A stretch of DNA of 64,000 nucleotides, from assembly GCF_016887565.1 (NCBI RefSeq), contig NZ_CP069396.1:2879001-2943000 (forward strand). The letters run 5' to 3'. Source of the stretch: Archangium violaceum. Its GTDB lineage: Bacteria; Myxococcota; Myxococcia; Myxococcales; Myxococcaceae. Of the stretch, positions 24,979 to 60,006 are shown in pieces. The notes under the pieces were generated by a model. It was given only the letters and a program-made list of their open reading frames with translations. It did no database searches and was not told the DNA's origin. Both the position numbers and the translations under genes were made by a program. Position 1 is the stretch's first letter. The number at the start of each line of letters is the position of its first letter.

Positions 24979-26593
24979 CGTCGGCGGCCGTCTGGTCCTC
25001 GCCGCTCCGCCCGAGGCGGACGCGCTTCGCACGCGGCTGGTCTGGCTCACCGTGTTCCGCACGGTGGCCGTCAGCCTGTCGCTGATCGCCGTCGCCGTCC
25101 GCCTGTTCGTCCAGCCCCTCGAAGAGCCCAGCCGCACGGACATGTTGTCCTTCGCGGTCATCGGGCTCGTGTACGTCTTCACCCTCGTCTACGGCCTCAT
25201 GCTGCGCCGGGGGCAGGTGGACCGGGTGGCGGCGGCGGTGCAGGTGATGGGGGACCTGATCATCGCCTCGGCGCTCGTGTTCCTCACGGGCGTGGGAGAC
25301 AGCCCCTTCACCTTCCTCTACCTGCTGGCCGTCATCGTCGCGAGCATCGTGCTGGATGGCCGGGGAGCGCTCGTCACCGCGGGGGCTGGCGCGCTCGCCT
25401 ATGCCTCGCTGCTGGTCGCGGTGAAGTTCAGCTGGCTGGTGCCGCCCATCAGCTCCACCACCCCCACGCGAGGCCGGTTCGCCTTCCTGATGGCCAGCAA
25501 CGTGCTGGCCCTCTTCCTCATCGCCGTGCTGGCGGGCTACCTGGCGCGCCAGCTGTCGGCGACCGGTGGCCAGCTGTCCGCGCGCGTGGCGGACCTCAAG
25601 CGGTTGGATGTCCTGCAGCGGCAGATCCTCGCCTGCATGCCCTCGGGGCTCATCACCTGCAACGCGGCTGGGGTCGTCACCTTCGTCAACCGCGCGGCCA
25701 GCTCCATCCTGTCGCTGGAGCCCCGGCTGCCCGCGAGCACGCATGTGGAGGCGCTGCTGCCGGGGGCGCTGGGGGCGGATGTCCGCCTGCGCCGCCGGGA
25801 GCTGACGGTCCGCACGGCGTCAGGCCTGCGCACGCTGGGGCTGACGGTGACGGAGCTGGAGGGCAGCGAGCTGGGGACGCTCATCGTCTTCCAGGATCTC
25901 ACCGAGCTGCGCCGCATCGAGGAGGACTTGAAGCGCGCGGACCGGCTGGCGGCCCTGGGGACGCTGGCCGCCCAGCTCGCGCATGAGATTCGCAACCCGC
26001 TGGCGGCCATGCGGGGCTCGGCGCAACTGCTGGTGCAGGACCCTGGGACGGACCCGGGCTCGGCCAAGCTGGTGGAAATCCTGCTGCGCGAGTCGGACCG
26101 GCTCTCCAAGCTGGTGGAGGACTTCCTGCGCTTCGCCCGGCCCCCCCCGCCCACCAAGCTGGAGCTGGAGCTGGAGGTGCTGGTGGCGGAAACGGTGGAC
26201 ATGCTGCGGGCGGATCCGATCGCCCGGCAGGTGCGGGTGGAGACGGCGCTGGCACCCCTGCGCGTGCCAGTGGACGCGGATCAGCTCCGGCAGGTGCTCA
26301 TCAACATCCTGCGCAACGCCTTCCAGGCGGCCGGCGAGGGAGGCGGGGTGCGCGTGACGCTGGAGCCCTCCGGGGAGCAGGCCCTGCTGAGCATCTGGGA
26401 CTCGGCCGGCGGCATTCCCGCCTCGGACCTGTCGCGCATCTTCGAGCCCTTCTTCAGCACCCGGGATGGCGGTACCGGGTTGGGGCTGTCCACGGCGTAC
26501 TCCATCGTGCGTGCGCATGGTGGCAACATCCGCGTGTCCTCCTCTCCGCGGGAGGGCACCGAGTTCCTCATTCAGTTGCCCCTGCAGGGTTGA
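24965..26593 (+). CDS. pilS: Pilin-gene sensor kinase PilS
   Basis: This membrane histidine kinase pairs with PilR to control pilA. The start is uncertain. A GTG at 24965, overlapping the end of pilC by 14 bp, is the last start codon before the first transmembrane helix and gives 542 residues. About six hydrophobic segments lie within residues 25-200, as in other PilS proteins. They are followed by a PAS-like region (LDVLQRQILACMPSGLITCN), HisKA with H-box HEIRNP near residue 341, and HATPase_c (NILRNAFQAA, DSAGGIP, GTGLGLS). In other bacteria PilS senses membrane pilin levels. pilR follows after 14 bp. Confidence 0.92.
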   Translation: MPSSSVGGRLVLAAPPEADALRTRLVWLTVFRTVAVSLSLIAVAVRLFVQPLEEPSRTDMLSFAVIGLVYVFTLVYGLMLRRGQVDRVAAAVQVMGDLIIASALVFLTGVGDSPFTFLYLLAVIVASIVLDGRGALVTAGAGALAYASLLVAVKFSWLVPPISSTTPTRGRFAFLMASNVLALFLIAVLAGYLARQLSATGGQLSARVADLKRLDVLQRQILACMPSGLITCNAAGVVTFVNRAASSILSLEPRLPASTHVEALLPGALGADVRLRRRELTVRTASGLRTLGLTVTELEGSELGTLIVFQDLTELRRIEEDLKRADRLAALGTLAAQLAHEIRNPLAAMRGSAQLLVQDPGTDPGSAKLVEILLRESDRLSKLVEDFLRFARPPPPTKLELELEVLVAETVDMLRADPIARQVRVETALAPLRVPVDADQLRQVLINILRNAFQAAGEGGGVRVTLEPSGEQALLSIWDSAGGIPASDLSRIFEPFFSTRDGGTGLGLSTAYSIVRAHGGNIRVSSSPREGTEFLIQLPLQG

Positions 26594-26607
26594 GGGGAAG
26601 GGAGAGC

Positions 26608-28002
26608 GTGGCCGTGCACATCCTGGTAGTGGACGATGAGCTGTCGATGCGCGAATTCCTGGAGGTGCTGCTCACCCGCTCGGGCTACCAGGTGACGTGC
26701 GCGGAGAACGTGCGGGTGGCCAGGGAGGTGTTGGGCTCCAAGCCGGTGGACCTGGTCATCACCGACATGAAGCTGGGAGCCTCGCAGAGTGGCATGGACG
26801 TGCTGCGTGGGGCGCGAGCCCTGGCCGAGCCGCCCGAGGTCATCGTCATCACCGCCTTCGGCACGGCGGCCTCGGCGGTGGAGGCCATGCGCGAGGGGGC
26901 GTACGACTACATCGGCAAGCCCTTTGACAACGAGGAGCTGAAGCTGCTGGTGCAGAAGGCACTGGAGAAGCGCGAGCTGCGCCGGGAGAACGTCTCGCTG
27001 CGCGAGCACCTGGTGCCCGGGGCCGGTGTGATTGGCGTGGGCCGCAGCGAGCGGATGCGGGCGGTGTGGAACCTGGTGGAGAAGGTGGCGCCCACCCGCT
27101 CCACCGTCCTCATCCACGGCGAGAGCGGGACGGGCAAGGAGCTCATCGCCAAGGCCATCCACCTCAAGAGCCCGCGGGCAGGCCAGCCCTTCCTCCCCGT
27201 CAACTGCGCAGCGCTCAACGAGGGCGTGCTGGAGAGCGAGCTCTTCGGCCACGTGAAGGGGGCCTTCACCGGCGCCACGCAGGAGCGGCCGGGCCTGCTC
27301 GTGCACGCGGGGGAGGGGACGGTATTCCTCGACGAGATTGGCGAGATACCGCAGGCCACCCAGGTGAAGCTGCTGCGCGTGCTGCAGGAGAAGAAGGTGA
27401 AGCCGGTGGGCAGCGCGGCGGAGGTGCCCTTCAACGCGCGCGTGCTGGCGGCCACCAACAAGCGCCTGGAGACCGAGGTGAAGGCGGGGCGCTTCCGGGA
27501 GGATCTCTTCTACCGGCTCAACGTGATTACGCTGGAGCTGCCGCCGCTGCGCGATCGCGCTGGCGACATCCCCCTGCTGGCCGAGCACTTCCTCGAGCGG
27601 CAGCGCAAGGAGTTGGGGCGGCTGGGGCTGCGCTTTTCCCCGGAGGCGATGGCCGTGCTGTCCTCCTACGCCTTCCCCGGCAACGTGCGCCAGCTGGAGA
27701 ACATCGTCGAGCGCGCGGCCACGCTGGCGGATGGGGACGTGCTGACGCTGGCCTCGCTGCCTCCCTCGCTGCGAGGGGAGCCGGAGCGGCCCTCGGCGGA
27801 GCAGGGGCAGCAGGTGACACTCGGCTCCGGCTTCTCGCTGGAGCGCCACCTGGACGATGCCGAGCGGCGCTACCTGGTAGCCGCCATGACCCAGGCGGGT
27901 GGGGTGAAGACGCGGGCGGCGGATCTGCTCGGTCTGACGTTCCGCTCCTTCCGCTACCGCCTGGCCAAGCACGGACTGTCCGAGCAGGACGACGAGCCGT
28001 GA
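26608..28002 (+). CDS. pilR: Sigma54-dependent response regulator PilR
   Basis: This 464-residue NtrC-family activator is expected to switch on pilA. The receiver domain has VVDDE and phosphoacceptor VITDMK (about Asp53). The AAA+ domain has Walker A GESGTGKE, the sigma54-contacting GAFTGA loop intact near residue 219, Walker [11 protein letters not shown], and an R-finger region ([12 protein letters not shown]). The C-terminal Fis-type helix-turn-helix ends in [24 protein letters not shown]. The GTG at 26608 has a GGGAGAG site; the TTG at 26590 would overlap the pilS stop and is less likely. A matching sigma54 promoter is visible ahead of pilA. Confidence 0.96.
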
Positions 28003-33862: not shown

Positions 33863-33912
33863 GGCGGAATCTGGCCGCGCCCCCGGGAGTGGGCTACTTC
33901 TGGGGTATAGCC

Positions 33913-35331
<1,419 letters not shown>

Positions 35332-59204: not shown

Positions 59205-59276
59205 GGTGACAGCAGTCACCAGGGGGGAACAGCAGTCACCAGCGGCAACTGGCGCGAAGTGATGACGGCGGTCATC
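59205..59276 (+). promoter_or_regulatory. Array of three palindromic sites upstream of a sigma54 promoter
   Basis: GGTGACAGCAGTCACC (59205-59220), GGGAACAGCAGTCACC (59225-59240, one diverged half) and GATGACGGCGGTCATC (59261-59276) share the pattern GRTGAC-rGCr-GTCAYC. They lie 75-145 bp upstream of the -24 element at 59351, where enhancer-binding proteins bind. The first two sit in 20-bp register and contain the direct repeat ACAGCAGTCACCAG. Confidence 0.6.
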
Positions 59277-59350
59277 GGGAAGAGGCTGGAGCCGGGACGG
59301 AGACGAGTGGAATCAAGGACTTCCGGATGCAGGTGGGAGGGGGCGGTGTC

Positions 59351-59366
59351 TGGCACACCTTCTGCT
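59351..59366 (+). promoter_or_regulatory. Sigma54 (-24/-12) promoter of the LysM-lysozyme gene
   Basis: TGGCACACCTTCTGCT keeps the GG-N10-GC spacing with a perfect TGGCAC -24 element. The transcript should start near 59378, about 30 nt before the ATG. Confidence 0.75.
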
Positions 59367-59406: not shown

Positions 59407-60006
59407 ATGGGCAGCTACAGCATCAAGTCCGGGGACACGTTGAGCAAGATCGCGCAGCGCTACAACACCAACGTCGACTCGTTGATGAAGGCGAACTCGC
59501 AGATCAAGGATGCCAACGTCATCCTCGCTGGAGCGAAGCTCAACATCCCGGGCAGCAAGGACGAGTTCATTCCGTCGCCCACCGGGAGCAAGAACGCCGC
59601 GTCGACGAAGGGCACCCAGGGCAGCGCGTCCGTGGGCGATGTGCCCCCGGGGCAGGTGGGTGACTGGATCAAGCAGGCCACGGAGAAGCTGCGCGCGGCG
59701 GGCGTGCCGGCGGACAAGATGAACGCGAAGGACATCGCCACCATCATCCAGCGCGAGTCCAGCGGTGACCCGAACGCCATCAACCTCTGGGACGACAACG
59801 CCAAGAAGGGCACGCCGTCCATTGGCCTGATGCAGACCATCCAGCCGACGTTCGACGCCTACAAGCTGCCCGGCCACGACAACATCCGCAACCCGGTGGA
59901 CAACATCATCGCGGCCGTGCGGTACGCGGTGGATCGCTACGGCTCGGTGTCCAACGTGCCCGGCGTCAAGTCGCTCAACGAGGGCGCGGCCTACGTCGGC
60001 TACTGA
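59407..60006 (+). CDS. LysM - transglycosylase (lysozyme-like) protein without signal peptide
   Basis: The 199-residue product begins at once with a LysM peptidoglycan-binding domain (YSIKSGDTLSKIAQRYNTNVDSLMKAN, ending in AGAKLNIPG). After a Ser/Gly/Thr linker comes an SLT/lysozyme-like domain with catalytic-type Glu in IIQRESSGDPNAIN and GLMQTIQPTFDAYKLPGHDNIRNPVDNIIAAVRYAV. This second domain is very close to the lysozyme modules of phage tail and tape-measure proteins. No signal peptide or anchor is present, so export must be by another route (lysis, a contractile tail or type VI-like system) or the enzyme is released on cell lysis. A sigma54 promoter and palindromes lie upstream. Confidence 0.88.
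   Translation: MGSYSIKSGDTLSKIAQRYNTNVDSLMKANSQIKDANVILAGAKLNIPGSKDEFIPSPTGSKNAASTKGTQGSASVGDVPPGQVGDWIKQATEKLRAAGVPADKMNAKDIATIIQRESSGDPNAINLWDDNAKKGTPSIGLMQTIQPTFDAYKLPGHDNIRNPVDNIIAAVRYAVDRYGSVSNVPGVKSLNEGAAYVGY

Follow-up and report, generated by a model that had tools for sequence, protein, structure and literature searches.

A putative sigma54 regulon of mostly signal-less, effector-like proteins around a palindrome-bearing lysozyme promoter of Archangium violaceum

The promoter stretch and the lysozyme gene behind it

The stretch at 59205-59366 lies ahead of a gene for a protein with a LysM domain and an SLT transglycosylase domain, and it contains palindromic sites followed by a sigma54-type -24/-12 element. 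The window, the whole stretch of DNA that was analysed, comprises 64 kb (2,879,001-2,943,000) of the 13.2 Mb one-contig genome of Archangium violaceum. Positions are those of the window unless a locus is named; G and L numbers are our handles for genomes and loci, G000 being the genome of the window.

Three putative activator sites, none assigned to a strand, open the stretch. Site 1 (59205-59220, GGTGACAGCAGTCACC) is an exact palindrome GGTGAC-N4-GTCACC and is exact at the matching place in four further genomes of the genus (G005, G002, G004, and G001). Site 2 (59225-59240, GGGAACAGCAGTCACC) starts 20 bp past site 1 and is degenerate, with 2 mismatches to GRTGAC-N4-GTCAYC; its counterparts in the same four genomes have 1 mismatch and lie 18-20 bp past site 1. 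Site 3 (59261-59276, GATGACGGCGGTCATC) starts 36 bp past site 2 and is again exact, GATGAC-N4-GTCATC, with 0 mismatches in G005 and 1 each in G002, G004, and G001. The preliminary description, made from the letters alone, had counted three sites of the pattern, which is right for the outer two and too generous for the middle one.

An IHF-like site (integration host factor; 59311-59323, plus strand, AATCAAGGACTTC) is situated between the palindromes and the promoter, 40 bp ahead of the -24 element. It agrees with 8 of 9 positions of what we take to be the IHF consensus and is found at the same place in the A. violaceum and A. lansinium records, which in this gene and its upstream sites look identical to G004 and G001. 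The -24/-12 element (59351-59366, plus strand, TGGCACACCTTCTGCT) reads TGGCAC-N7-GC, matches 10 of 12 consensus positions, and has GG and GC correctly spaced. Only 3 matches of such quality occur in the 64 kb window, and the start codon at 59407 follows 40 bases past the element. A script check returned the element as described before and the same distances of 75-145 bp from the palindromes.

The three site positions and the -24/-12 element recur upstream of the orthologue in the four genomes named above, so that the earlier expectation of conservation in relatives is borne out within the genus. A close orthologue is missing from G003, the fifth relative of the genus (best E 6.9e-9). Taken together, two exact sites and one degenerate site, the -24/-12 element, and the positions kept in four relatives support the proposed geometry of an enhancer-type sigma54 promoter. 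The three activator sites, the IHF-type bend site, and the -24/-12 element would thus form an enhancer-dependent promoter of the window gene.

The gene itself (59407-60006, plus strand) is an open reading frame for 199 aa with matches to PF01476 (1.9e-14) and PF01464 (9.8e-13). The LysM domain covers aa 4-48 (59416-59550) by Pfam match. In the region directly past it, KDEF at aa 51-54 (59557-59568) keeps its K, D, and F in all of 11 orthologues aligned. The SLT catalytic domain spans aa 107-195 (59725-59991), also by Pfam match, and E117 and GLMQ are invariant among the aligned orthologues; from the SLT family, E117 is presumably the catalytic residue. As judged by eye, no signal peptide is visible and the N-terminus opens directly with LysM, in agreement with the signal-less lysozyme described before.

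The catalytic domain is about 49-56% identical to phage tail tape-measure lysozymes in the best rows and matches a tape-measure profile at 3.7e-43. The phage-tail-like features noticed earlier are therefore real (up to 55-56% identity), and this similarity speaks for an origin of the catalytic domain from phage tails. The suggestion of a tail-associated system fared worse, as no phage tail gene cluster was found in the open reading frame list or in a PHROGs scan of four neighbouring genes. Among these neighbours, a GDPD gene matches a tail-fibre profile as well as phosphodiesterase profiles, and a BNR-repeat gene has a weak match to one profile of unknown function.

A palindrome regulon and its candidate activator

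The exact pattern GRTGAC-N4-GTCAYC, for which a genome search had been proposed, occurs at 46 sites in G000 compared with 2 for the reversed control. This ratio inflates the signal: near most single sites there is no promoter-like element, and many of them lie inside predicted genes. Counts of single palindromes were hence dropped as main evidence; they are mostly promoterless and reach 26 in genomes without the activator discussed below. All 38 places with the 46 exact sites were examined, of which 11 were tandem (one exact site plus, within 60 bp, a second with no more than one mismatch) and 27 single. A -24/-12 element, defined as a match of at least 10/12 at 40-170 bp in the correct orientation, accompanied 10 of the 11 tandem places and one of the 27 single places (L060; Fisher p=2.5e-7). 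Thus, the tandem palindromes indicate a regulon. Two more promoters, L111 and L112, have one-mismatch sites and were obtained by a gapped pattern search. By architecture and conservation, a predicted regulon of about 11-13 promoters in G000 is well supported.

Triple sites spaced about 20 and 36 bp are also present at L051, L052, L053, and L069, with varying distance to the -24 element. At least 67 of 98 genomes match this triple spacing, many of the matches resembling coding repeats; in G000, 4 of 5 matches are regulon promoters. In G003, three neighbouring genes (L210) have the same -24/-12 element with palindrome-like sites near, and two of them encode PRPDINGN-repeat proteins.

A candidate for the protein that binds the palindromes is encoded near the M4 protease gene of the regulon (L069), at about G000:C1:11481200-11482470. 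It combines an FHA domain (PF00498, 5.5e-14), a sigma54 activation domain (PF00158, 9.3e-65) with GAFTGA present, and a Fis-type helix-turn-helix (HTH; PF02954, 2.9e-5). Orthologues in the five other genomes of the genus are 86-96% identical, and in 6/6 genomes the activator gene is located upstream of the palindrome-controlled M4 protease gene. The tandem-site promoter of the M4 gene comes directly after the activator gene in G001-G004; in G000 and G005, one predicted gene lies between them and an extra palindrome is found right behind the activator gene. That the controlled gene encodes an M4 protease follows from tblastn, with 59-69% identity in G001-G004 (partly fetched) and 91% in G005.

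Outside the genus, relatives of the activator that are 73-85% identical are present in 14 of 16 further genomes, and G021 and G060 have none at E<=1e-140. In G032, about 2.4 kb separate the activator gene from an M4 gene that has three palindromes. In the genera g15, g23, and g26, some of which are probably Myxococcus and Corallococcus, the product of the gene next to the activator has a D-x-F box in its N-terminal part (see below). In G027, matches of the adjacent gene to C39 peptidases are weak and stay below cut-off; facing it is an SLT gene with the leader described below, a -24/-12 element, and a one-mismatch palindrome. Ser/Thr kinase genes adjoin the activator in G000 and G027, and such kinases would probably signal to the activator through its FHA domain.

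From this neighbourhood, the FHA-domain activator is predicted to bind the palindromes and control the regulon, which we consider probable. Another sigma54 activator could bind the palindromes of a real promoter and leave the FHA protein a mere neighbour, as there were 139 first-look candidates for sigma54 activators in the genome, with 11 matches at E<=1e-80 among 54 scored, and G017 holds 26 palindromes without a close activator orthologue. We regard this as rather unlikely, given that the FHA gene adjoins a tandem-site promoter, or is one predicted gene away from it, in 6/6 genomes of the genus, that its HTH helix hardly varies among close orthologues, and that the nine genomes with a close orthologue have 25-47 palindromes compared with 0-26 in 24 others (raw counts, the nine genomes being larger). 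The window itself contains two further sigma54-activator-like genes, at 26590-28002 (GAFTGA) and 33889-35331 (GAFTDA).

Regulon products, their leader, and the possible route of export

Regulon products were assigned by family, and the signal peptides of all targets were judged by eye. The L035 target is an M91 peptidase (PF14891 Peptidase_M91 'effector protein', 1.5e-16), with a weak match to the XopG model (26.2 bits, cut-off 150). A thaumatin-like protein (L051), an SLT transglycosylase (L053), and an Asp f 4-like protein (L056) follow. The L069 target is an M4 thermolysin-type protease with propeptide domains and no visible signal peptide. The products of L049, L058, and L060 have no assigned family, L058 having been scanned with NCBIfam and PHROGs only. 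For most targets, no Sec signal was seen. Since a substrate in the cytoplasm is hard to conceive for M4 proteases and transglycosylases, the regulon products are likely exported by a non-Sec route.

Several further genes were observed alongside these targets. The gene behind the candidate at L060 (L060 3902-4945) encodes a trigger-factor C-terminal, chaperone-type domain (2.1e-14). An SLT-like gene at L111 (1775-2619), with the -24/-12 element and the one-mismatch palindrome, is seemingly split into two frames. A possible further effector is encoded at L044 (2476-3462) by a gene that contains a single palindrome; it has a KDAFE box, and Pfam gave no match. The target at L046 (1299-2330) encodes an MshEN protein of the cyclic-di-GMP-binding type, and a similar-looking protein (L229) is found near an activator paralogue in G077, so that a cyclic-di-GMP link to the regulon is possible.

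Nine loci outside the genus (L123-L131; eight Corallococcus and one metagenome-assembled genome) have a second gene with a catalytic domain of the window type, in which a leader replaces LysM in 9/9. Likewise in 9/9, a -24/-12 element, an IHF-like site at -40 or -41, and at least one exact palindrome are found upstream. A profile of these nine leaders was searched in the 1101 proteins predicted from fetched loci. It matched the SLT protein of L053 (5.7e-15), an SLT protein of G005 (2.5e-18), and related lysozymes (1.8e-14), and further the SLT protein of G027 (1.4e-6) and the Asp f 4-like protein (2.3e-6). A search of the leader against the PDB gave nothing meaningful (best E 0.026).

Eleven chosen leaders align with invariant M1, S7, D49, and F51. 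They sit on SLT, lysozyme, Asp f 4-like, thaumatin-like, and unassigned domains, and one modular leader common to different enzyme domains is well supported by the alignments. In a looser form, a D-x-F box within residues 30-80 is present in 6/12 targets of G000 and 4/187 background genes (p=2e-6). The 12 targets include the second operon gene L058b as well as L111 and L112, and omit L046, L050, L052, and one gene divergent from L112. The pattern P-x-L-x-x-P near the N-terminus is weakly enriched (3/12 versus 7/187, p=0.016). KDEF of the window protein is a possible counterpart of the D-x-F box. The leader could be a portable export tag, being present on lysozyme, transglycosylase, and Asp f 4-like domains and, to judge from pairwise BLAST, on a thaumatin-like domain too.

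Two loci of the type III secretion system (T3SS) kind are present in G000. The one at 3.84-3.88 Mb has genes of the YscJ, FliH/SctL, FliM/N, FliP, FlhB/YscU, and FHIPEP families, and from this gene content it is taken as the putative T3SS*, the needleless system of myxobacteria. The T3SS* is required for prey lysis according to a 2025 paper, which in its accessible text speaks only of potential effectors (PMC12075869); a 2023 review, in the portion available, calls the effectors unknown (PMC10433427).

Some proteins of such loci bear on the cargo question. In the G000 locus (L109), one LcrH/SycD chaperone scores above the curated cut-off (110.7 versus 104.8 bits); a second match there and one in G019 stay below it. 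One protein of the T3SS* locus of G019 (L261) has KDGFQ at residue 45, and L261 and L262 (G002) each encode a protein with KDGFE near residue 150. The G019 locus also encodes a DUF1521 (NopE-type) protein (1.7e-12) containing GDPH, which is described in the accessible part of PMC6506597 as the autocleavage motif of MIIA domains in T3SS-linked proteins. The N-terminus of the four-copy protein of L109 was compared with 29 targets and 1069 background starts; beyond its own relatives (L260 and L235), the top scores were G003_d (46) and L058 (27), the next being 19.

On these similarities, the T3SS* is a tentative exporter, at slightly less than even odds, and several results weigh against it. Two of the three boxes in T3SS* loci lie near the C-terminus, and no KDGF-type box was found in the T3SS* locus of G000. 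The N-terminal resemblance is limited to 2/29 targets, with the other 27 at noise level, and BLAST of one resembling pair gave E 0.43. Neither palindromes nor strong -24/-12 elements were seen in the T3SS* stretches L109, L261, and L262. In addition, VipB of the type VI secretion system (T6SS) is present in 9/9 genomes with a close activator orthologue and 1/24 others, compared with 9/9 and 17/24 for T3SS genes; because of this, the co-distribution favours the T6SS over the T3SS.

The same regulon could hence send its cargo through a T6SS or another non-Sec route, and T6SS genes are often sigma54-controlled. We hold this to be the less likely course, as the VipB co-distribution may just mirror the shared ancestry of the core genera. 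No PAAR, VgrG, Hcp, or Rhs part was matched by Pfam in the window protein or the scanned regulon proteins (MIX-type motifs and separate carriers were not searched for), some T3SS* locus proteins have similar N-termini or boxes, and M91 and DUF1521 are type III effector families.

A separate observation concerns the T3SS* loci themselves. They contain several near-identical copies of a small, helical-looking protein (L109 13346-16308; L261 1008-4051; L262 6497-11705; also L242, L258, L234, and L254), for which a Pfam scan gave nothing convincing. In the PDB, its profile matches best to a 43-residue chain of 7y6c that is listed as a needle protein co-chaperone (E 4e-4). The 'needleless' system might then possess a needle-like subunit. 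The leader profile scored weakly against the needle-like protein (0.03-0.97).

Overall reading and comparison with known systems

On balance, we favour a sigma54 regulon with an FHA activator, leader-bearing cargo, and T3SS* export as the best explanation of these sequences. The FHA activator would turn on mainly signal-less proteins, several of them sensible only outside the cell, and several products would carry the modular N-terminal leader with the D-x-F box. Export would run via the needleless T3SS* of myxobacteria, perhaps together with the Kil Tad apparatus, and the window lysozyme would be a wall-cutting effector directed, as we suppose, at prey. For myxobacteria at large, the comparison suggests that a sigma54 regulon for effector-like, mostly signal-less products is conserved, with circumstantial links to the T3SS*.

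A bolder version is conceivable, and we hold it with less confidence. A switch of Ser/Thr kinase, FHA activator, and sigma54 would fire on prey signals, LcrH-type chaperones would read the leader (in the form MxxSPxS...D-G-F, or M-x-I...P-x-L-x-x-P), the T3SS* would export the proteins, and catalytic domains would be swapped on one leader.

A number of findings do not fit the favoured explanation well. The window protein carries LysM in place of the leader. Orthologues in G032, G034, and G021 have no such sites in 330 bp upstream, and at nine loci with LysM-type orthologues outside the genus (L115-L122 and L134; Corallococcus, Citreicoccus, Hyalangium, and one metagenome-assembled genome), no palindrome was found within 400 bp (305 bp for L122) and no -24/-12 match, two of them having short upstream DNA. 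L050 is the sole tandem place without a -24/-12 match. The IHF-like site was rejected as a general feature of the regulon, as it occurs at 1 of 13 promoters of G000, the window promoter only, and in 8 of 20 rows of a further promoter set. The MshEN protein looks cytoplasmic, and the L052 target, a CBM6 protein, has a Sec-type signal. The D-x-F box was spotted on the targets first and counted afterwards, the thaumatin-like protein was missed by the leader profile and linked by pairwise BLAST only, and the needle-like T3SS* protein was rejected as a relative of the leader (hhalign probability 0.1%).

Alternatively, the window gene could encode a developmentally controlled autolysin or a domesticated phage-tail lysozyme acting on the own cell, as the close similarity to tape-measure lysozymes might suggest. 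FHA-domain activators of Myxococcus were reportedly studied in fruiting-body development, to go by the title of Jelsbak's 2005 work as listed in PMC6971385. Developmental autolysis is improbable because the co-regulated genes, M91 and M4 peptidases, thaumatin-like and Asp f 4-like proteins, and another transglycosylase, fit an arsenal turned outward, and the neighbours contain no tail gene cluster. That chance palindromes lie beside an unrelated promoter is very improbable: single sites are mostly background, with 26/27 single places lacking the element, but the tandem coupling and the three positions kept in four relatives refute it as far as the DNA letters go.

No published description of the palindrome site, the regulon, or the leader was found in the literature searched, mainly openly available papers. 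Under the favoured reading, the DNA code, the candidate activator, and the leader give a concrete list of proteins for tagging, and the question of T3SS* cargo becomes testable in Myxococcus xanthus.

FHA-domain enhancer-binding proteins of Myxococcus share with the candidate activator the combination of FHA, a sigma54 activation domain, and a Fis-type HTH; what is proposed here in addition is a site of recognition and a set of targets, whereas the published work concerns fruiting-body development by title. In M. xanthus, targets of Nla28 typically have tandem activator sites 80-150 bp upstream of a -24/-12 element of the type TGGCACG-N4-TTGCW, with the half-site CT(C/G)CG(C/G)AG ahead of natural-product genes, as given in the accessible part of PMC7910581. 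The layout of tandem sites and -24/-12 element is the same here. Unlike in Nla28 promoters, the palindrome here reads GRTGAC-N4-GTCAYC, is spaced 20/36 bp, and lies ahead of effector-like genes.

The catalytic domain is homologous to that of phage tail tape-measure lysozymes; unlike these, it is found here in free-standing form, fused to LysM or to a leader, outside any phage cluster seen. T3SS-type genes of the kind found in the needleless T3SS* with Kil Tad apparatus are present in G000, and prey lysis by that system would need wall-cutting cargo. The available text of its publications names no effectors (PMC12075869, PMC10433427), whereas a candidate set with a leader and a regulon of its own is proposed here. 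Type III effector families recur as well, with an M91 (XopG/HopH type) target in the regulon and a NopE/MIIA (DUF1521) relative in the T3SS* locus of G019. In contrast to plant-associated type III effectors, the targets here would probably be prey microbes and not plants.
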